This document shows positions 6,219 to 63,560 of a stretch of 64,000 nt of DNA, piece after piece. The translations under genes were made by a program, and so were the position numbers. The DNA is from Naegleria lovaniensis (taxonomy: Eukaryota > Heterolobosea > Eutetramitea > Acrasida > Naegleriidae): NCBI RefSeq assembly GCF_003324165.1, contig NW_025407866.1:43543-107542 (forward strand), given 5' to 3'. Positions within the stretch are counted from its first letter, which is position 1; the number at the start of each line of letters is the position of its first letter. Below the pieces are notes generated by a model that searched no databases, had not been told where the DNA came from, and was given only the letters and a program-made list of their open reading frames with translations.

Positions 6219-6289
6219 GCGTCGATGGTTTAGTGGTAGAATACGGCGTTGCCATCGCCGTGACCCGGGTTCAATTCCCGGTCGACGCA
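6219..6289 (+). tRNA. tRNA-Gly (anticodon GCC)
   Basis: 71-nt cloverleaf. Acceptor GCGTCGA pairs with TCGACGC, discriminator A at 6289. D arm contains TGGTTTAGTGGTAGA (A box). Anticodon stem CGGCG/CGCCG has loop TTGCCAT, giving GCC at 6251-6253. T arm is CCGGGTTCAATTCCCGG (B box). No intron. Nuclear-type gene. Confidence 0.97.
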
Positions 6290-14354: not shown

Positions 14355-14428
14355 GCAGCGGTAGATCAGTCGGTTAGATCGTCAGCTTTACACGCTGAAG
14401 GTCATGGGTTCGATTCCCGTTCGCTGTA
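14355..14428 (+). tRNA. tRNA-Val (anticodon TAC)
   Basis: 74-nt cloverleaf. Acceptor GCAGCGG pairs with TCGCTGT (two G-U pairs), discriminator A. D arm GATC...GATC contains AGTCGGTTA. Anticodon stem TCAGC/GCTGA has loop TTTACAC, giving TAC at 14389-14391. T arm is ATGGGTTCGATTCCCGT. The gene starts only 117 bp upstream of the MORN-gene ATG (opposite strand) and ends 14 bp before the PQ-loop ATG. Confidence 0.95.
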
Positions 14429-50393: not shown

Positions 50394-53300
50394 ATGTATC
50401 CTTCATCCTCGCCATCCAACAAATCTTTCATGAGTTATTACAGTCCAAAGATGGGCTCAACTCCTCCTTCTCATCTTTCCGCTCATCACCAATACCATCA
50501 CCATTCTCATCATTCTCACCATAGTCCTTCTTCTACCAACACAGCTTTGAGCAGCTTGTTGAATTCAGCACAAGCATTGTTGTCTCCTAACAGTAGTAAT
50601 ACTCAATTCATGAGTCAACAACCTCATCATCAACCCTCTCAAGCTGTGAGTAGTGGTGTTTTAAATCCGAGCACTACTAAATTCGGACCTCACATTTTTG
50701 ATAGCTACTTGGAATTGCAAGATGGTACAAGATACTATGGTAAGGCTTTTGGAGCTACCAAGTGCATGAATGAAAAGGATACCAATTGGGATACATCATT
50801 CTCTGTAAGTGGTGAATGTGTATTTACCACTGCAATGGTTGGGTATCCAGAGTCTTTGACAGATCCATCGTATCAAGGACAAATATTGGTGTTAACTTTT
50901 CCACTTGTGGGTAATTATGGAGCTCCTCCATTCAAGAAAAATCAATTACCTTCTGCAGCTACTATGAACAATACTATGGCCAATGAATATGTTGATGATT
51001 TTGGTTTGTTACCTCGTTTAGAGAGTGACAGAATTCATATTCGAGGATTAATTGTTCAAGATTATTCTCACAATTATTCTCATTATGAAGCTATTTGTTC
51101 ACTTCATCGTTGGCTACAAGAATATAATATTCCAGGTATTTATCACGTTGATACCAGAGCAATCACAAAGAAATTAAGAAATGAACGCTCCATGCTTGGC
51201 AGAATTGTCACAGACATTAATGCTGCAGATGAGATGATAAAGTTATGTAAGGAACTTAACTGGTATGATCCAGGTGCAGATCCAGACATTATTACACAAG
51301 TAACATGTAAGGAAGTCAAAGTATACGGGCATGGAAATACCTTTAAGGTTATTGCAATTGACTGCGGAATGAAATATAACATTATTAGAGAGCTTGTGAA
51401 GAGAGACATTGAATTGAAGGTAGTTCCATTCAATTACAATTGGGTTGAAGAAGTTGACCATTTGGATGGTCTATTTATTAGCAATGGACCAGGTAATCCA
51501 AACAATTTTGTTTCTACAATTGAGTATTTAAAGGATTATATTAGAAAAGCATCATCAAAGGAATTACCAATGATCCCTATATTTGGAATTTGTTTGGGTA
51601 ACCAACTTGTTGGTAGAGCTGTTGGAGCATCTGTTTACAAATTACCATTTGGTAATCGTGGTCACAATCAACCTGTAATTGACCAATTGACAAGAAAATG
51701 TTTTATAACCTCCCAAAATCATGGTTATGCTGTTGATAACTCCAGTCTACCCTACAACTTCAAACCATACTTTATTAACGCAAACGACAACAGTAACGAA
51801 GGAATTTATTGCACAAACATGCCAATTTTCACTTCACAATTCCATCCTGAAGCCAAAGGAGGTCCAGAGGACACCTTCTTCCTTTTCGACCAATTTGTTG
51901 ACTTGATGAAATTGAAATGTAATGGCAAATTGTTAGAAATTACCAACTTCGAGTCACACTACAGCAAGGTGTTTGTAAGACATCATAAGAATATGAGAAC
52001 CAAATTTAATGAACTTTTGCAATCTATTGAGGATACATCAGACATTAGCACACCAATTTTCCAACAACAAGAAATATTGATGAAGAAGAGTATCTTCTCG
52101 GCTGAATATAAGAGAGATCCGTCACAAAAACGAGAAAAATCAATTTCCAAGAAACCTCCTCTCCCAAAGAAAGTTATTGTGCTTGGAAGTGGTGGTCTTC
52201 AAATTGGACAAGCAGGTGAATTTGATTACAGTGGTTCACAATGTATTAAGGCCCTCAAAGAAGAGGGAATCTTTACAATTTTAATTAACCCAAATATTGC
52301 TACAGTCCAGACATCGAAGGAACTTGCTGATAGAGTATACTTCGGCCCAGTTACTCCAGATTTTGTTGAAAAAGTTATTGAAAAGGAAGCAGCAGATGGA
52401 TTGTTACTCTCATTCGGAGGTCAGACAGCACTAAATTGTGGTGTTCAATTGCACAAGAGTGGTGTGTTGGAAACATTAGGATGTAGAGTATTAGGTACGC
52501 CAGTTCAATCTATTATTGATACCGAAGATAGAGATATTTTCAATCAAAAGATGAGAGAAATTGGCCAACCAGTTGCCGATTCATGTGCATGTGACAATGT
52601 CGATGAAGCCATTGTTAGTGCACACAAAATTGGATTCCCAGTGATCGTGAGAGCTGCTTTCGCTTTGGGTGGTCTTGGTTCTGGTTTTGCAAATGATGAA
52701 AGAGAGTTAAGAGAATTAGCTACTCAAGCATTAAGCTCATCTCCTCAAATTCTTGTCGAAAAGAGTGTTAAAGGATGGAAAGAGATTGAATATGAAGTTG
52801 TAAGAGACTCTAACGACAATTGCATTACAGTTTGTAACATGGAAAACTTTGATCCTGTTGGCATCCATACTGGTGAGTCAATTGTCGTTGCTCCTTCTCA
52901 AACTCTTAATAATGACGAATATCATATGCTCAGAACTGCAGCTATTAAGGTGATTAGACACTTGGGAATTGTTGGAGAATGTAATATTCAATATGCTCTC
53001 AATCCTTACAGTAGAGAATATGTAATCATTGAAGTCAATGCTCGTCTTAGTAGAAGCTCTGCCTTAGCAAGCAAAGCCACAGGATATCCTCTTGCTTTTG
53101 TTGCTGCGAAGCTCTCATTGGGAATGGAATTAATTGATATTAAGAATTCAGTGACAAAGGAAACTACTGCATGCTTTGAGCCAGCTCTTGACTATTGTGT
53201 TGTTAAAATGCCAAGATGGGATTTGAAAAAGTTTGTTCGTGTCTCTACTAACATTGGAAGTGCAATGAAGAGCGTTGGTGAAGTCATGGCTATTGGTCGT

Positions 53301-56042
53301 AATTTTGAAGAAGCCATTCAAAAAGCTATTCGTATGGTCAACACGAGTTATAGAGGATTTGAAACCACTGGATCACTATTTGATTATGAAAAGCTATTGA
53401 AGACCATTCCAAATAACATTATTCAACCAAATAGCAATCCATTTGCAATTCCAACAGTGATCAATGCTAAGGAAGAGGTTAAACAAAGAGTAATTAGAGA
53501 ATTGTTACATCCAACAGATCAAAGAATTTTCGCAATTGCTCTGGCCATGGACTTGTTTGACATGACCGTAGACCAAATTCATCAATTCACACAAATTGAT
53601 CGTTGGTTCTTGTACAAGCTCAATAACATTGTACAAACCAGAAAGGCACTCAAAGGAGTCGGCAAGTATATGCAATCAACTGTTGACATTCCATACCCTC
53701 TCTTAATTCTCTCAAAGCAGCAAGGTTTCTCAGATTTGCAAATAGCATCTTACCTTCCAAACTCTGTGTTCCAAAACTTTGTTCCAGATTCGTCTTTCCC
53801 TTACAAATTATCCTCAAAAGATCATTTAACAAATATTGATAAGGAATTGATCGTTAGATATGTCAGAAAGTATATTCACAAGATTCAACCAATTGTTAAA
53901 CAAATTGACACCTTAGCAGCAGAGTATCCTGCCCAAACAAATTATCTTTATACAACCTATAACGCTGGAATCAACAGCATTGCATTACCTGATGAGAAAT
54001 CCCAAAATAAGTCCAAATTTGTATATCCTGATCATCATCTCCACCATGATGTGACATTTAATGATAAGGGTGTTATGGTTTTGGGAAGTGGAGTTTATAG
54101 AATTGGTAGCAGTGTAGAATTTGATTATTGTGGTGTGATGTGTATTCGTGAGTTAAGAAGATTAGGATTTAAGACTGTCATGATCAATTACAATCCAGAA
54201 ACTGTTTCTACTGATTATGACGAACCAGATCGCCTCTATTTTGAAGAACTGAGTCTTGAAAGAGTGATGGATATTTATGAACAAGAATCATGTTCTAGTG
54301 CTATAATTAGCGTTGGAGGTCAACAACCCAATAACATTGCTCTTCCTCTCGATAAGCAATGTAATGTGAATATTCTTGGAACAAGTGCAGATTCCATTGA
54401 CTCATGTGAAGACAGAAACAAGTTCAGCAAACTTTTAGATTCTCTTGTCGACAATCGAGGAGAGAAACTTGTCTATCAACCTGAGTGGGCTGCTCTAACT
54501 ACTGTTGAAGATGCTCTTTATTTTGCCAACAAGGTTCAATACCCAGTTTTGATTAGACCAAGTTATGTATTGAGTGGTGCAGCTATGAATGTGGCGTACT
54601 CAGACACTGAATTATTACAACAATTGTATGAAGCTGCTGACGTTTCAAGCGAACATCCTGTTGTTATTTCCAAGTTCTATGAAAACGCCAAAGAAATTGA
54701 AATTGATGGTGTTGCTCAAAATGGATTTATTATCATTGATGCTATCAGTGAGCATGTAGAAAGAGCAGGAACTCATAGTGGAGATGCTACTTTAATTTGT
54801 CCACCTTACAGCTTGAGTTTTGATATTCAAGATCTTATTAGAGAAAAGGCAGCTCTTATTGCCAAAGCACTTAACATTAGTGGTCCATTCAATATGCAAT
54901 TCCTCTTTGATAATGAACTTCCACATGACAGTGCGAACAATACTCAACCATCTTCATGGAGTGACGAAGAGGAAGACCCACAAGAGGAAGCTCTCAAGTT
55001 ATATAGAAGTTTATCAAAGAGATTGAGAGTTATTGAATGCAATTTAAGAGCCTCAAGATCATTCCCATTCGTATCAAAGACTCTTGATTTGGACTTTATC
55101 GCCCTAGCAGCCAAAGTTTTCACAAATACCTTCCTTTTACCATCAAATATTGAGCAAATGACATCCAAACAGAAAGTACCAACTCAAAATTATTATGAGC
55201 AAATGAATTTATTGAATGAAATTGCTCAACTACGTTCCAATAATCAACAGCAACAATCCTCTCCAAATCACAATGAGTTGATTGATAAATACTCAATGAC
55301 CTATGAATCCATTCAAAGAAAACGATTCTGTAAATCGTTCTACGGATGTAAGACTCCAATGTTTTCATTCAAGAGATTGGCTGATTGTGATCCAAAATTG
55401 GGTGTAGAAATGGCCAGTACTGGTGAAGTGGCATGCTTTGGACAAACTGTCAGAGATGCCTTCTTAAAGGGCATGAGTAGTGCATTCCCAAATTTACCAA
55501 CTTCATTAGATCATCGTAGTAAGAGCGTGTTAATTGCCTCATTCCCTCACTCAACCAAGGCCAATATGGAGTTAATTAACCATTTACTTCAATCTATTTA
55601 CATTCTATATCAACATTTACGATACACTATTTATGTTTCACCCTACGTTGCTGAGAAATTGTCTCAAAACTTACCCCAGCTCAAATATCACGTGCTACAG
55701 TTGCAGCAATATGTGCCGCTTGATGAAAGAGGAATTTGTCTTGCCAGCCAATTGAAGTTAGACGAGGAGGCTGAGATTTTGAAGAAGATTGGCTCTGACA
55801 TTAGCATGATTGTTGACGTTCCATTCCCAGACAACAACCAAAAGTTAAAGGAACAACATTATCTCATCAGACGAAAAGCAATCAATTACGATAGACATTT
55901 ATTCAACAACTACGAAGTGTTTAACCTGTATGTGAAATGTTTAAAGGATTTGAAAGACAAGAAGCAAAATTTGGATACATTGAATGTTAACCCATACTCG
56001 CATTACCTTGAACTTCAAGCTACAGACTTGAGACTTTGTTAA
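50394..56042 (+). CDS. Glutamine-dependent carbamoyl-phosphate synthase II (amidotransferase-synthetase fusion)
   Basis: 1882 residues, intronless. Residues 1-100 are His/Ser-rich. The small-chain and class-I glutamine amidotransferase part spans about 105-510: GLFISNGPGNP, nucleophile Cys400 in FGICLGNQ, and His484/Glu486 in FHPEAKGGPEDT. The synthetase starts near 594 (VIVLGSGGLQIGQAGEFDYS) and its second half near 1225 (VMVLGSGVYRIGSSVEFDY); both ATP-grasp halves are recognisable (FPVIVRAAFALGGLGSG, YPVLIRPSYVLSGAAMN). A C-terminal MGS-like regulatory domain starts near 1711. It makes carbamoyl phosphate from Gln, bicarbonate and ATP. No dihydroorotase or ATCase domain follows, unlike CAD. 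A charged Gln-rich insertion (about 1515-1640) accounts for extra length. Confidence 0.95.
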   Translation: MYPSSSPSNKSFMSYYSPKMGSTPPSHLSAHHQYHHHSHHSHHSPSSTNTALSSLLNSAQALLSPNSSNTQFMSQQPHHQPSQAVSSGVLNPSTTKFGPHIFDSYLELQDGTRYYGKAFGATKCMNEKDTNWDTSFSVSGECVFTTAMVGYPESLTDPSYQGQILVLTFPLVGNYGAPPFKKNQLPSAATMNNTMANEYVDDFGLLPRLESDRIHIRGLIVQDYSHNYSHYEAICSLHRWLQEYNIPGIYHVDTRAITKKLRNERSMLGRIVTDINAADEMIKLCKELNWYDPGADPDIITQVTCKEVKVYGHGNTFKVIAIDCGMKYNIIRELVKRDIELKVVPFNYNWVEEVDHLDGLFISNGPGNPNNFVSTIEYLKDYIRKASSKELPMIPIFGICLGNQLVGRAVGASVYKLPFGNRGHNQPVIDQLTRKCFITSQNHGYAVDNSSLPYNFKPYFINANDNSNEGIYCTNMPIFTSQFHPEAKGGPEDTFFLFDQFVDLMKLKCNGKLLEITNFESHYSKVFVRHHKNMRTKFNELLQSIEDTSDISTPIFQQQEILMKKSIFSAEYKRDPSQKREKSISKKPPLPKKVIVLGSGGLQIGQAGEFDYSGSQCIKALKEEGIFTILINPNIATVQTSKELADRVYFGPVTPDFVEKVIEKEAADGLLLSFGGQTALNCGVQLHKSGVLETLGCRVLGTPVQSIIDTEDRDIFNQKMREIGQPVADSCACDNVDEAIVSAHKIGFPVIVRAAFALGGLGSGFANDERELRELATQALSSSPQILVEKSVKGWKEIEYEVVRDSNDNCITVCNMENFDPVGIHTGESIVVAPSQTLNNDEYHMLRTAAIKVIRHLGIVGECNIQYALNPYSREYVIIEVNARLSRSSALASKATGYPLAFVAAKLSLGMELIDIKNSVTKETTACFEPALDYCVVKMPRWDLKKFVRVSTNIGSAMKSVGEVMAIGRNFEEAIQKAIRMVNTSYRGFETTGSLFDYEKLLKTIPNNIIQPNSNPFAIPTVINAKEEVKQRVIRELLHPTDQRIFAIALAMDLFDMTVDQIHQFTQIDRWFLYKLNNIVQTRKALKGVGKYMQSTVDIPYPLLILSKQQGFSDLQIASYLPNSVFQNFVPDSSFPYKLSSKDHLTNIDKELIVRYVRKYIHKIQPIVKQIDTLAAEYPAQTNYLYTTYNAGINSIALPDEKSQNKSKFVYPDHHLHHDVTFNDKGVMVLGSGVYRIGSSVEFDYCGVMCIRELRRLGFKTVMINYNPETVSTDYDEPDRLYFEELSLERVMDIYEQESCSSAIISVGGQQPNNIALPLDKQCNVNILGTSADSIDSCEDRNKFSKLLDSLVDNRGEKLVYQPEWAALTTVEDALYFANKVQYPVLIRPSYVLSGAAMNVAYSDTELLQQLYEAADVSSEHPVVISKFYENAKEIEIDGVAQNGFIIIDAISEHVERAGTHSGDATLICPPYSLSFDIQDLIREKAALIAKALNISGPFNMQFLFDNELPHDSANNTQPSSWSDEEEDPQEEALKLYRSLSKRLRVIECNLRASRSFPFVSKTLDLDFIALAAKVFTNTFLLPSNIEQMTSKQKVPTQNYYEQMNLLNEIAQLRSNNQQQQSSPNHNELIDKYSMTYESIQRKRFCKSFYGCKTPMFSFKRLADCDPKLGVEMASTGEVACFGQTVRDAFLKGMSSAFPNLPTSLDHRSKSVLIASFPHSTKANMELINHLLQSIYILYQHLRYTIYVSPYVAEKLSQNLPQLKYHVLQLQQYVPLDERGICLASQLKLDEEAEILKKIGSDISMIVDVPFPDNNQKLKEQHYLIRRKAINYDRHLFNNYEVFNLYVKCLKDLKDKKQNLDTLNVNPYSHYLELQATDLRLC

Positions 56043-57325: not shown

Positions 57326-59324
57326 GATGATGTATATATGTATTTACGAAAGTTGTTGTACGTTAAATTAAAAGTGGAAGATATCAGCAAAGAAAAAAAA
57401 AGTCGTCTGATGATTGTTGTTGTTGTATATATTTACTCAAGATTCCAACAACGTTCAATGTAGTGGGAATATATATTGTAGTTGATGATGATAAAATGAT
57501 GCAACAGCTGCGGTGATGATGGTATTCTTTGCAGCGCTGGGAAGAGAGATGGCTGATGTGGAGCAGCGCCGATTCGATTTTTTTTTGGATGGCGGTTGTC
57601 GCGCCATTTTAACGGTTGACCATTACAATTATGGTCATGTCAAACGAATATCTTTACGAAATTAAGAGTGACACACAGTGGTTTAACCCGAGCCAAAATA
57701 CTCCAGCGAATTTGTTGGCGAGTTGGCGAGGGTCAACGTTTCTTGATGCATCATTTGAGTGCTTTTGTTTATGTACTTTATTGCACAACAACTTGCCTCA
57801 GTTCCAACCGAGAGGGTGTATGCCTTGTAAAGCTTTAGGCAGATCCGCCCGGAATTGCATAACGATTTTTGGCAAAATACAAATAGTACATGCAGAACAT
57901 TTGCAACTCGTGAGAACAACAATATTTGGATGAAACATGATAATAAGGGACTAATAAATGGCAGCAACAACAACAACCGATAAAACTTGAAAATAACCCT
58001 AAGGGACTACTCAATAACGAGCCGTGAGGGGCAGAAGTATGGACGGATCACGATTACGAGCGGGTGGGTGATGAATATAGTGATACTTCTTCTGATGAAG
58101 AGTCTGATGAGTCCTAGGAAATGACATCATTGGTTCGTATTGAATCTCTCAAAAGGGCATCATTGGTTCGGAAGGCTTGCTGTTGTTCATTATCATCACC
58201 ACCCTACCCGAACGATAGAAAATATTTATTATTATTAAGGATATTTTTTTGAGTGTTCGAATTCTTGCTAAATATTGAGTTGGAGAACAATCATGCGAAA
58301 TGCACTCAACACCTGGCCACCCACTCCGATGTTCAAGTCCATTGATCATCATGGTTGTTTCTATTTTGAATAATAATCATTGCGTATTAAAACGATTGTT
58401 GAACCAATAATAAACAAAAACAACACGGTTATTCATCAACACTTTAAAGCAGTAACCGAAAAACAGGTCCTGCCATCAAAATCATCAAAAATAACCTTCT
58501 CCTTGATGCCATCTCGTTGAAGCTGTTGTGGTGAGAGTACAAGCGGTGGGTATGATTATCAATGAACAACCTTCAAGCGGAGCATTCTCCATGTATAAAC
58601 ATGGACGACAACCCTGTTTCTCCCTCACGAGAGTTCTCCATACTACTGGATACAGTAGATCAGCGAGAAGGTATTGCCAGTGTAAAAACGATGAAAGGGT
58701 TGCAATGATTATAATTTAACAAAATCATCAAAATTGTGGGTTTTGAAAAATATGTTTGATAAGCAATTTTTAACAATTAATCATCATTTACAACATACAA
58801 CCAACATCCACCACGCTTATTTCAATCATGAGAGTCTTTTGACTTTGTCTTCATCTATTCTACTCAATTAGAAATTGATTTTCCAAGTTTTTATCAACGC
58901 GAGGGTGTTGTATGTTTGATTGTATTTAAAACTAAGGCGCGATGAATGTAAATAATTTGTGTCTTGTGAAAAAGAATCTGGTACAAGTATAGGGATTACA
59001 AAAAATTACCAAACAAAGATTTTTAATTAGCGAAAGGAATTTGTCACCCTATCTCGAATACACGTGCAAGTATGGATGTCATGGCTTCCATTTTCGGTGA
59101 AATCATAAATATTACTTGATCCTACAGATACCCCTAAATAAGGAATTTATGAAATGGGTAAAAATTAATGCAATTTCGAAATTGGTGCTACAAATTTCTC
59201 GAATTGAATTATTAAACGTTGAAAATGGTAATTTAAAACGTAATGGTAGGACATTAAGAATACAATAAATACATGCTGAATTTTAGTTGTGTTATTGAAT
59301 CATCATTAAAAAAAACAATTCATC
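57326..59324. other. 2-kb gene-poor stretch upstream of the Fanzor gene
   Basis: No credible complete gene. It contains the PP1 promoter; poly-T/GTT-rich sequence near 57400-57430; a 106-codon open frame at 57616-57933 with no recognisable features; an acidic tail-like reading at 58031-58117 (EYSDTSSDEESDES then stop) that could be a terminal exon or gene remnant; and a duplicated CATCATTGGTTCG near 58125-58175. The last 500 bp are very AT-rich. The left boundary of a possible Fanzor-bearing element would lie in here but I could not identify it. Confidence 0.45.
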
Positions 59325-62300
59325 ATGAACAACCAGAGTCGTGAGGAGAATAATTCAAACAACCCTCGTTTCACCTCCTCCCATCATCCATTCCTTCAAC
59401 CTATATTCCCACCAAATCCCAATCTTTTCACTCAACAAAATCCATCCTCTCAACCAATTTTCCCTCCAAATCCCGCCATTTTCTCCCCAAATCTCTCTTT
59501 TCAACCTAGATTTCCTCCACCATGGATTCCTCTAAATACCTTCTCTCCTCAATTATATCCAATCATTCCCCCATTTCCTCCAAGAACTTCAGAACAAACA
59601 TCAACAAAGGACCAAGAATCACCCAAGTTGGAACATGTTGACAATACCAATATCAACCCCATCAAATCACCCAATCCTACCAGAGAAATTGAAAAAACCT
59701 TTCAAAATTCAAAGAGAGTCTTGGCGATAAAGGGGCAACCACAAATGATATGCAAACATCCTTATCAAAAACGTTCCATGATGGAACGTATTGATAAATG
59801 GCGTAAATTGAAAGGCGTTGGTGGTTTTGGTGGTTTCTCTATCCCTCCATACATACCAATGGCGCAAATTAAATTTTCGCCATGTGAACACACTTTAAGT
59901 GATCATTACAAGTGTGAGGAAGAAAGAGCAAAGAAAAAGAAGAAGGTTGCTTCTCATTGGCAGAGATTGGAAGTATTGAAAGACGTATCTACTGTTGATA
60001 AATTTGGAGACTTATTAAGGACTGCTTATTTGGAGCGTGGAATTAGTATTGAACCTCTCTCTCTCGATCAAGGAAAAGCATACGCAACCCAAGAACATTA
60101 CATGTTGTTATTTTTAAAACAATTCAATCTGGAATGGAGCAAAATTGGTACTTTCTTTTTTGATAGATCCATCAACTCATTGAAGAAAAAGTATAAGAAA
60201 TTGAAAAGAAAGATTAATCGTGCCAGATTGGAAGGAGCGTATGATGCTTCAGATGCAACAAATTTTATCATTCAATGGAGTGTCGATGATTTAACCTTTT
60301 CAGAATTCACTGATAGTAACACCTTTACCTCTACTGTATCGATAACTTTTCCAGAAACATGGACAAATTCTGATCATTACCAGAAAATGATTATGAAACT
60401 TGGTCAATTAAGTCCATCCAAACCCTTACCGTTAAGACAAGCACAACCATCATCGAACAAGTCCAATGTATCAACGACTCCAGGAGAACCTTATTCACAG
60501 TCGGAAGAGGATTTAATTGTGACATCCTTGCGGAAGGGAATGAATTTGGAACAAATTTACCGAGATTACTTTATACACCGAACATTTCAGTCGCTGAAAA
60601 ATAAGGTTCGACGGTTAAAAAAAAGGCAACTCTATCACAAACAACAACCATCGAAGAAGAGATTGAATAAGAGAAGGATGGTTCCCAATTCCACTGTTTC
60701 AACTGATTCAAAGGAGTTAAGAAAACCGTTTTGGCATGATGATACGGTTGATCGTTTGAACAAGACTTGTCCTGTGTCATGTTTTGCCAAGAATGGTTTG
60801 AAAATACCGACCCAAAGTTGGTTTACCCTCTCCGTTCGCCAACGATGTCCATCCACAAAACCACCTCCGAGCAAGAAGGAATTGGTAGAAAAAGTGTGGT
60901 GCAAATCAGAAACTTGGAAAAAGACGCCATGTAAGTGTGGAAATTCCAAGTTTAAAAGGACAGTCTGCTCGTTCAACGGACGCAAGTTTGGGTCAGAAAA
61001 GAAGAAGCTTGTTCAGGAATTCAAGCAAGTATCTGCGTTAGAGGAGTCTTTAACAATGCTTCAAGAGAACGGAGTGAATTCATCCACGACTGCTGAGAAT
61101 GAAGTGAGTTCATCTGCGACTGCTGTGAACGAAGTGAATTCATCCACTACTGCAGAGAATGAAGTGAATTCATCTACGATTGCTGAGAATGGAGTGAGTT
61201 CATCTACGACTGCTGAGAATGGAGTCAATTCATCTACGATTGCTGAGAATGAAGTGAGTTCATCTACGACTGCTGAGAATGGAGTCAATTCCTCCACTAC
61301 TGCGGAATCAAAGGAAAAAGCTGATGACACTATCGAGAAATTGCTAAAACAAATTTACACCTCCTTCTCAATCTCAAACGAAGACAATTATTTTGTGAGA
61401 ACAAAGAAAGTGAGATTGAAACTCACCTCAGAACAAAAGAAGGTCTTTGAAAGATTTTTCTTCAATTCTAACCATGCTTATAATGAAGCATGTCTCCTTC
61501 ATTTCATGTTAGAGCAAAACAAGGGAAAAACACTCCTTACCACCACAGAAGACGATTACTTTAAAATTTTGAAGAATCCCCAAACCAACCTGAGATTCAA
61601 ACAAACTAGGTGGCTATGGGATCAAGAGTTGAAACATTGTCCAGCAGATATTAAATTGAACGCTGTGAAAGACTTTGTCAAGGCTGAGAAAATTACTAGA
61701 TATAAAAACAAGCAAGCAGCAGAAAAGGAATCCAAAGAGGCTGCTCGAAAGGCCAAAACCAAATTTCTTAAAGATGTTCAAAAAGGAAAGAAGGAGATGA
61801 TTACTGATGAGGAATTGAACGAAAGATTTAATCCCAAGCATTTTACTCGACAACCTCGTGAATTCGAAATGAAAGGACGAAGCAATCAACATCCATATCA
61901 GTCGTTCAAAGTGAGAGACATTTCATTATCACAGGAAGGAGTGTTGTTAAAACCTACCTTTTTTAAAGGGAATGAAAGTGCATGTCCTTCCAAGAAATCT
62001 ACGGATCATCTTTTGAAATTTTATTATCCTGCAAGAGCACGAAAGTGGTTAAAGGAAGAGATTGGTATGTATATATATGTATTTCGATTTTACTTACATG
62101 TGATTTGAATCCCTTACATGAATGTGATTGATTCATGTGATTGGAACTTTTCTGAATTCTAATTTTTCCATGATCCGTCTGCCCTTTGCCTGCCCAAACA
62201 TCAAGACAACAAAAAATTTTCACACGAGACAACCTTTGTACGAGAAAGAGGAAGATATTTTGTTTGCCTTCCAGTCCGTTATCACAAAGCTTTAACTCGA

Positions 62301-63245
62301 CAAGAATTCCAACGGTTTGATAAAAGCTTCTACGAGTCCAATTCGAACAGTGGAACTGAATATGACACGAAATTTCTCAAGGACTGCCCACAACCTTCTC
62401 AAGATGAACTCAGAAAGGAATACATTGCATTGGATCCAGGTGTTCGATGCTTCATGTATGGTTATGATAGTAATGGAGACGCGTTGGAGTTTGCCGCTCA
62501 AGGAGAAAACACCATACTCTTTTCCCTTTCTCTAAAGCAAGATCAGCTCAGGTCGGAAATTGCCAAGAACAAATTTCTAAAATACAATTCTCGGCAGGAA
62601 CGAAAATTTTATAAGGGTTTAAGAAAAGCCTTAAAAAAGAAGATTAGAAGGCTGGAAAGCAAAATTAGAAATAAGGTGAATGATATGCATAACAAAATCA
62701 TTGACTATTTAACTTTCCACTATTCTGAAATTATAATACCTGAATTTAATGTCAAGGCCATGATTGCAAGAAAACAAAAACAAAGGAAGCGTCAAGGAAA
62801 AGAAGATACCACGTGTCAAGGACAAGAAGGTTATACTAATGGCCAAACGGAGAATATGGATGTGCGAACAGAACCTCTTGTTGCATCGTCTTCACCATTC
62901 GAAGGATGGGAATCAAGGGACACCACTACGAGTGAAACCACCACCAACACTTCCGAATGGGTTGGAAGAAAAATTACTAGAAAAACTGTTCGCCAAATGT
63001 TGCGATTTAGACACTATGATTTTCGAATGAAACTCTTGCAAAAGGCAGAAATGCGTGGATGCAAGGTACATGTTGTCACAGAACAATATACATCGAAAAC
63101 GTGTGGAAATTGTTCAGTGATCAAGGAAGACCTTTATGGAAGCAAATGGTTTCATTGCAATCATTGTCACTTCCACATCCCTCGTGACGGTAATGGAGCA
63201 AGAAATATTTTGATCAAGAATTACCATCATTTATTACATTGGTAA
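59325..63245 (+). CDS. Fanzor (eukaryotic TnpB-like RNA-guided nuclease) with SANT/Myb-like N-terminal extension
   Basis: Exons 59325-62064 and 62206-63245, intron 141 bp (gtatgt...tcaag); 1259 residues. The catalytic half has RuvC-I ALDPGVRCFMYG (Asp990), RuvC-II IIIPEFNVKAM (Glu1093), the zinc finger TSKTCGNC...FHCNHC (Cys1213, 1216, 1231, 1234) and RuvC-III IPRDGNGARNIL (Asp1241), all intact. The TnpB-like N-terminal lobe runs from about 688 (YFVRTKKVRLKLTSEQKKVF). Preceding it: a Pro-rich start with FPPNP repeats; two SANT/Myb-like helical modules at 252-297 (WSKIGTFFFDRSINSLKKKY) and 390-435 (IYRDYFIHRTFQSLKNKVRR); Cys clusters (481-548); and a 10-residue repeat linker (581-660). A ~65-residue loop separates RuvC-II from the finger. 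Family members cut DNA guided by an RNA encoded at the 3' end. The fusion is unusually long for Fanzor. Confidence 0.9.
61065..61304 (+). repeat. 30-bp minisatellite (8 copies) inside the Fanzor gene
   Basis: Eight head-to-tail 30-bp units, in frame, encode Glu-Asn-(Gly/Glu)-Val-(Asn/Ser)-Ser-Ser-(Thr/Ala)-(Thr/Ile)-Ala. Units differ at two to four bases. It forms a flexible Ser/Thr-rich linker between the N-terminal modules and the nuclease. Confidence 0.92.
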
Positions 63246-63309
63246 GTTGAAGAGACAACTAAAATGATTCATCATTCGGGCCATAGATCTATATAATAAT
63301 AACTATGTG

Positions 63310-63428
63310 ATTATCATTCTGTCAAGATGATAATTCCGTCTCTCGTGTGAGAGATGAGTATGTGATCGGAGCACTTTAAAACACCAAAAAATCATTGTTA
63401 TCATTGATGGAGTATGGTGTGCTCTCCG
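63310..63428 (+). ncRNA. Candidate guide (omega/f) RNA scaffold downstream of Fanzor
   Basis: Three hairpins lie in 119 bp beginning 65 nt after the stop. Stem 1 is ATTATCAT (63310-63317) with ATGATAAT (63327-63334). Stem 2 is TCTCTC (63339-63344), loop GTGT, GAGAGA (63349-63354). Stem 3 is compound: CGGAG...ACACCA (63367-63386) with TGGTGT...CTCCG (63415-63428), and an inner ATCA/TGAT pair. In TnpB and Fanzor systems the guide-RNA scaffold overlaps or follows the 3' end of the nuclease gene. Transcription is not shown; assignment is positional inference. Confidence 0.45.
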
Positions 63429-63560
63429 AGTAAGTGTTGTTGTTGTATTTTTAACGCGTGTGACTTTTTAATTTTGTAAAGATATTCTTTGTTGTGATGA
63501 TGGAATACACTCGGAACGATCTTTCTCTGTCATGGTATTTCATGCAAATAATAAAAAAAA

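Follow-up and report, generated by a model that had tools for sequence, protein, structure and literature searches.

In a 64,000-nucleotide stretch of the Naegleria lovaniensis genome (contig NW_025407866.1, positions 43,543 to 107,542 of the forward strand; the window), a single two-exon gene at 59325-63245 encodes, with a predicted intron, an open protein of 1259 amino acids (aa) in which two related N-terminal modules are joined to a Fanzor. The first open reading frame (ORF) in the ORF list spans 59325-62108 (927 aa) and the second, 3' ORF ends at 63245; a splice donor at 62065 and an acceptor at 62205 (GTATGT...CATCAAG) join the two in frame, and the alternative in-frame splice pairs that are present have poorer donors as judged by eye. 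Both the intron and the resulting 1259-aa product are thus predictions, while at the DNA level the fusion is real. A preliminary description of the locus had proposed a full-length Fanzor fused in frame to two related modules, and this was borne out, since 12 loci carry the extension and selection acts on both halves. The residues that it had singled out (D990 within DPGV, E1093, D1241, and the four finger cysteines) and its modules at aa 252-297 and 390-435 with a 10-aa repeat linker were all found at those places. The gene itself also stood, but the feature is larger than had been described, namely, a transposon at 57652-63481 in which the Fanzor fusion is the sole gene recognized.

The Fanzor half matched the TNB domain of Pfam at 65.7 bits (cut-off, 26.3; E = 4e-18), and the match to OrfB_IS605 (27.1 bits) was under the cut-off of that family (30.5 bits). 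The closest PDB chains were the TnpB-like L79 (5e-13) and TnpBs; Cas12f was also among the 14 matches, none of which was named Fanzor. According to the pertinent passages of PMC10711439, Fanzors carry DPG at the first catalytic aspartate and a glutamate six residues before the first CxxC. The protein was examined for DPG at the first aspartate, for E-x6-CxxC, and for a final aspartate 4 to 8 residues past the second CxxC, and all of these were found (D990, E1206, C1213/C1216, C1231/C1234, and D1241). E1093 occupies the ordinary TnpB glutamate position, and serine is found there in a second, separate family of 495-aa Fanzors in the same genome. Judged from these residues, the Fanzor-type catalytic glutamate is the shifted E1206; the earlier view of a catalytically intact nuclease therefore stands for the RuvC and finger residues but not for E1093 as the catalytic glutamate. 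The window protein formed the longest branch among the 80 rows of a tree built without Fanzor1 rows, in which its placement is unsure, and by sequence it is a very divergent Fanzor that may belong to either Fanzor1 or Fanzor2. It would be expected to cut DNA under RNA guidance.

To compare N termini, 128 relatives were measured (79 prokaryotic, taken from the best 80 of 427 matches, and 49 viral); 2 of 130 relative loci had no recognizable ORF and were dropped, and some of the ORFs are short or cut. The N-terminal motif P[FY]W...[SG]W[FY] was found in 69 of the 79 prokaryotic and 28 of the 49 viral relatives, and it recurs in the window protein at aa 468-501. A slightly stricter pattern was matched by 12 of 100000 shuffles of aa 1-690 and was satisfied by 11 of 14 relatives; a profile built from the motif block gave no significant match to the window protein. 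Downstream, a WED/HTH stretch at about aa 691 was recognized by profile comparison (E = 1.7e-5; probability, 78%). Fanzor proper thus probably starts near aa 466, with the 10-aa repeats inside it, ahead of the WED/HTH stretch. Because the Fanzor's own N-terminal motif lies at aa 468-501, the added part comes to about 465 residues and not to the roughly 690 previously assigned to it, and part of the "Cys cluster" region that had been counted as an addition probably belongs to the Fanzor's own N terminus.

The two added modules are related to each other (BLASTP E = 6e-5; 0 of 5000 shuffles as good), and lysine and arginine are abundant in both. Myb families made up four of the five Pfam matches of module 1, the best being Myb_DNA-bind_6 (E = 2e-4); in longer stretches the Myb score was 16.6 to 19.3 bits, and against a profile of this genome's own Myb domains module 1 reached only 7.2 bits, with 2 of 893 scored shuffles as good. 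When aa 225-450 were modeled, module 2 contained three helices with a predicted local distance difference test (pLDDT) score of 74 to 80 and module 1 was poorly modeled; module 2 alone was modeled at a pLDDT of 79 as one short and one long helix. Several results weigh against a Myb/SANT assignment. Module 1, at 21.9 bits, is below the Pfam cut-off of 22.9; module 2 matches no Myb family in Pfam, and its score against the genome's Myb-domain profile was equaled by 154 of 896 shuffles. Moreover, the model of aa 225-450 was poor (mean pLDDT, 50), and Foldseek with both models (aa 225-450 and module 2 alone) returned no match at E <= 0.001. The two SANT/Myb modules of the preliminary description, for which profile searches and structure prediction had been suggested as checks, were hence upheld in part: module 1 is Myb-like just below the cut-off and module 2 is not by profile, and helices were modeled in module 2 but no significant fold match was obtained. 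We regard "Myb/SANT-like" as a label that is fair but unproven, and stronger for module 1. A search of this genome for the source of the extension, in which the best candidates were scored, yielded nothing beyond the Fanzor family itself.

Myb/SANT-like folds can bind DNA or proteins. The modules might accordingly be SANT-like protein or chromatin binders that bring the Fanzor to chromatin or to a transposase, which is possible but, in our estimate, somewhat unlikely. The weak Myb similarity leaves room for this, given that such folds bind either partner, and the lysine and arginine richness of both modules is compatible with either reading; the best profiles of module 1 are Myb DNA-binding families, though these are not discriminating. 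We favor the reading in which the modules would bind DNA.

Copies of the gene were sought in the window's own assembly (30.7 Mb, 97 contigs). The Fanzor TNB domain was found at 41 places, and the part of the window that holds the gene belongs to a family of closely similar DNA copies. The N-terminal extension was present at the 12 loci and as one relic on C8. Both exons are open across the fusion in 4 of these 12 loci (the window, C2:595k, C2:940k, and C5:724k), and the remaining 8 are interrupted, truncated, or insert bearing. In C2:595k, C2:940k, and C5:724k, every coding indel is a multiple of three, and two of these indels are whole 30-bp repeat units. The ratio of nonsynonymous to synonymous differences (pN/pS) was calculated from unique differences from the window in 15 fetched pieces from 10 other loci, with the older C38 copy left out; the P values are only indicative because decayed copies and shared ancestry are included. 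In the extension, aa 1-130 gave a pN/pS of 0.38 (P = 0.015), aa 131-440 one of 0.40 (P = 2e-4), and module 1 one of 0.22 (P = 0.005); for the Fanzor, the first exon gave 0.49 (P = 0.02) and the second 0.22 (P = 5e-6). Two segments count the other way, as neither module 2 (0.51; 5 differences; P = 0.38) nor aa 441-580 (0.58; P = 0.08) reached significance, and the relics on C8, C20, and C24 retain too little module sequence for testing. Taken as a whole, purifying selection acts on the extension and the Fanzor alike, and at the protein level the extension is preserved to about the same degree as the first Fanzor exon and to a lesser degree than the second.

The same comparison bears on two other explanations. 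Translation could also start at Met452, which follows the modules and precedes the Fanzor motif, to give a plain Fanzor of about 808 aa alongside the fusion or in its place. This methionine does not vary among the aligned copies, stands directly ahead of the PFW...SWF motif, and is flanked by A at -3 and by G at +4; the frame upstream nevertheless stays open and under selection, so an upstream product would be made in any case, and we judge this explanation improbable. Alternatively, the nuclease could be inactive and the protein a DNA-binding regulator or a relic passenger, in keeping with its very long branch and with 8 of the 12 loci being broken or incomplete. This appears very unlikely, because the catalytic and finger residues are intact and exon 2 shows the lowest pN/pS.

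The transposon that carries the fusion has ends reading CTTTAC[AG]AAATTAA in the aligned copies and in paired inverted repeats. Exact 17-base repeat ends occur 78 times in the genome and, when up to 2 mismatches were allowed, 368 times, versus 180 for the reversed control pattern; among the first 100 of the 368 places there were 20 pairs of facing ends less than 12 kb apart, many of them short noncoding elements. The target duplication is 4 bp (ANNT) and was perfect in 11 of the 20 elements examined (6 of 10 Fanzor-bearing elements and 5 of 10 others), 10 having been scored by script and the eleventh, C45:281k, reading ACCT on both sides in the aligned copies; that the other 9 lack a perfect duplication counts against the overall reading given below. 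An empty site was found on C29 (stretch L028), which has the window neighborhood minus the element and ATAT once; the comparison covered the neighborhood at 52000-56000 and both element flanks. C29 is probably allelic to the window, because the sequences are near identical, although it may instead be a segmental duplication. Empty sites for three other copies, sought via their right flanks, were not found. A 5' noncoding stretch is absent with identical break-points from four loci (Table 1), and a shortened form of the element has therefore multiplied. Host domestication, which had been raised as one meaning of the fusion, would fit a long open frame under selection, but it is contradicted by a multicopy transposon with twelve loci, inverted repeats, duplications, and an element-free copy of the site, and we consider a domesticated host gene scarcely credible.

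No transposase was recognized inside the element, and none that goes with these ends turned up in the same-end elements inspected, which were drawn from the first 100 of the 368 places, so that a partner with diverged ends may exist; six stretches around same-end pieces (L055 to L060), whose ORFs were inspected by eye and not searched against families, likewise showed none. On C9, a 4.1-kb element that shares these ends and has a 747-aa ORF was first taken as an autonomous partner, but it was rejected because five identical copies, 2.55 kb long and bounded by ends of their own, show a nested, unrelated transposon. That separate 2.55-kb element (L047:1515-4059, with further copies in L049, L051, L052, and L053) has ends reading GGGA(G/A)G(A/T)GCCACTAATTACA and apparent 3-bp target duplications; its 747-aa ORF, identical in the five copies, gave nothing in Pfam above a weak zinc finger, and the element is a young transposon. 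Noncoding elements of 84 to 903 bp (L039, L040, L042, L043, and L044) share the ends of the window element, have perfect ANNT duplications in four of five cases, and were likely moved by the same machinery. Left flanks scored by eye had A as the third base before the duplication in 9 of the 10 copies with a Fanzor and in 5 of the 10 elements without one, and this base may form part of a target-adjacent motif.

The right end of the element was conspicuously uniform. With differences from the window counted once per genomic locus, 179 of 7525 sites differed in the 5' noncoding part (0.024), 9 of 2568 in the final 215 ORF bases (0.0035), and 6 of 2831 between the stop codon and the right end (0.0021); for the 8 loci covering both ends, the corresponding values were 0.022, 0.0017, and 0.0026. 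The 3' end is thus about 10 times less divergent among copies than the 5' noncoding DNA of the element, and the strong conservation already begins by about position 63031, inside the ORF. For Fanzors and TnpBs, passages of PMC10432273 and PMC10711439 place guide-RNA production at the 3' end, and the 3' end of the window element may similarly yield a guide RNA extending into flanking DNA. The folding evidence is less favorable to this proposal: the candidate only modestly beat shuffled sequences (z = -2.0 and -2.6), and 0 of 91 predicted pairs showed two-sided changes, i.e., there was no covariation, because the copies are too alike. An Rfam search of the element gave a single subthreshold match, taken as chance. 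Gene conversion and constraint on the ends for movement are alternative sources of the 3'-end conservation.

Table 1. Features of the fusion gene and its transposon (positions in the window)
Feature	Position	Strand	Basis
Left target-site duplication, ATAT	57648..57651	.	Copy alignment, empty-site comparison
Whole transposon, 5830 bp	57652..63481	+	Copy boundaries, inverted-repeat pairs, target duplications, empty site L028
Left terminal inverted repeat, CTTTACGAAATTAAGAGTGACACAC	57652..57677	+	Aligned copies, repeat pairs; extent of ~25 bp judged by eye (window and short elements)
5' noncoding stretch missing with identical break-points from C2:940k, C5:724k, C38, and C55	58248..59305	+	Copy alignment
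Exon 1 (predicted; aa 1-913 and first base of codon 914)	59325..62064	+	ORF list, splice prediction, copy comparison
Module 1, aa 252-297, Myb/SANT-like	60078..60215	+	Pfam, BLASTP, profile and shuffle tests
Module 2, aa 390-435, relative of module 1, modeled helical	60492..60629	+	BLASTP, models, shuffles; no profile match
PFW...SWF motif, aa 468-501, probable Fanzor N terminus	60726..60827	+	Motif comparison with relatives; profile not significant
30-bp (10-aa) tandem repeats, number differing among copies	61065..61304	+	Copy comparison
WED / HTH_OrfB_IS605 stretch, ~aa 691-722	61395..61490	+	Domain search, profile comparison
Predicted intron, 141 bp	62065..62205	+	Splice prediction
Exon 2 (predicted): RuvC with D990 (62433-62435), E1206 (63081-63083), C4 finger, D1241 (63186-63188)	62206..63245	+	Domain search, splice prediction, residue positions
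Candidate guide-RNA (omega-RNA) scaffold	63246..63485	+	Conservation among copies, folding
Right terminal inverted repeat, inward reading CTTTACAAAATTAAAAAGTCACACGC	63456..63481	-	Aligned copies, inverted-repeat pairs
Right target-site duplication, ATAT	63482..63485	.	Copy alignment, empty-site comparison

Elsewhere in the window, an 1882-aa ORF at 50394-56042 looks like carbamoyl-phosphate synthetase from a reading of its translation alone, and tRNA genes lie at 6219-6289 and 14355-14428.

Fanzor2 proteins captured by cut-and-paste transposons have been termed Fanzor2* (Yoon et al. 2023, PMC10711439), and the window element, with terminal inverted repeats and target duplications around its Fanzor, has this arrangement. 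In the features given in the relevant passages of that paper, the two share DPG with the shifted glutamate, terminal inverted repeats with a short target duplication, and a guide RNA expected at the right end; the window protein differs in its N-terminal addition of roughly 465 residues, with a repeat linker and a pair of Myb/SANT-like modules, in its length (1259 aa versus roughly 500), and in its very divergent sequence. NlovFz2 of the same species is described in part of Saito et al. (2023, PMC10432273) as having a 96-aa disordered N terminus and no inverted repeats, a layout that resembles the separate 495-aa Fanzor family and not the window fusion. At least one such other family, of about 495 aa and without the extension, is present in this genome (L001 to L008 and further TNB places), several of its copies being open across their full length, and it is possibly of the NlovFz2 type. 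In Dictyostelium fasciculatum, Fanzor1 is carried by Sola2 elements (Bao and Jurka 2013, PMC3627910). According to the passages concerned, these resemble the window element as DNA transposons that house a Fanzor and have short inverted repeats and target duplications of 4 bp (A..T). Their duplications read AWWT, however, and they have or derive from a Sola2 transposase, whereas the window element has the fused extension and ANNT duplications, with C or G in the middle positions in several copies.

Harbinger-type transposons encode a Myb-like accessory protein that is separate from, and beside, their DDE transposase. Both they and the window element are DNA transposons encoding a Myb/SANT-like module, but that of the window is fused to an RNA-guided nuclease, and its element has a 4-bp duplication. 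The longest of the 128 prokaryotic and viral relatives was 631 aa, and DPGV, recognized in 94 of them, was always at or before residue 430, compared to residue 990 in the window protein. No fusion was found among the prokaryotic and viral relatives identified by Fanzor profiles, the viral ones having come from two overlapping sets of loci, one of 28, or in viral contigs scanned with the modules or with exon 2. No description of one was found in the titles, abstract openings, and passages of the Fanzor papers examined. The earlier claim that the fusion is undescribed fits that literature and is likely, but it is not established, the relatives compared being prokaryotic and viral.

Together, these results are read, with about even confidence, as an inverted-repeat DNA transposon whose sole recognized gene joins Myb/SANT-like modules to a Fanzor, with guided recutting by the nuclease and DNA binding by the modules. 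A guide RNA from the right end would read into the flanking DNA; the Fanzor ribonucleoprotein would cut unoccupied sites, and repair would then copy the element back, as has been proposed for TnpB. In the passages concerned, Saito et al. (2023, PMC10432273) discuss such TnpB-like copy-back for Fanzors and call the Fanzor role unknown. The Myb-like modules would bind DNA, most likely concentrating the nuclease at, for example, the element's own ends and so adding a protein-read address, and insertion probably relies on a transposase provided in trans.

A feature of the insertion site is relevant to this mechanism, as the target of the guide would lie just there. In comparison with the empty L028 (C29), three indels (1, 4, and 9 nucleotides) occur just 3' of the insertion (window 63482-63520), falling within 15 bp of the duplication in the occupied sequence and within 29 bp in the empty one; over 1357 columns the 5' flank showed 3 mismatches plus 12 gap columns, and 440 columns further 3' showed none. 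This is a single occupied/empty pair in which the direction of the changes is not polarized. A more specific and rather doubtful proposal is that the modules recognize DNA at or just inside the ends of their own element and hold the Fanzor ribonucleoprotein there. The outcome would be a homing nuclease with a protein address as well as an RNA address, which would help the whole inverted-repeat family, including its short noncoding members, to persist. If this were true, the indel cluster beside the insertion would be the scar of such cutting.

The role of Fanzors in eukaryotic transposons is unsettled, and a multicopy fusion under selection, with an empty site, lets one ask whether Fanzors act at their own ends. 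The fusion may also serve as a natural model of an RNA-guided cutter that bears a protein address as well.

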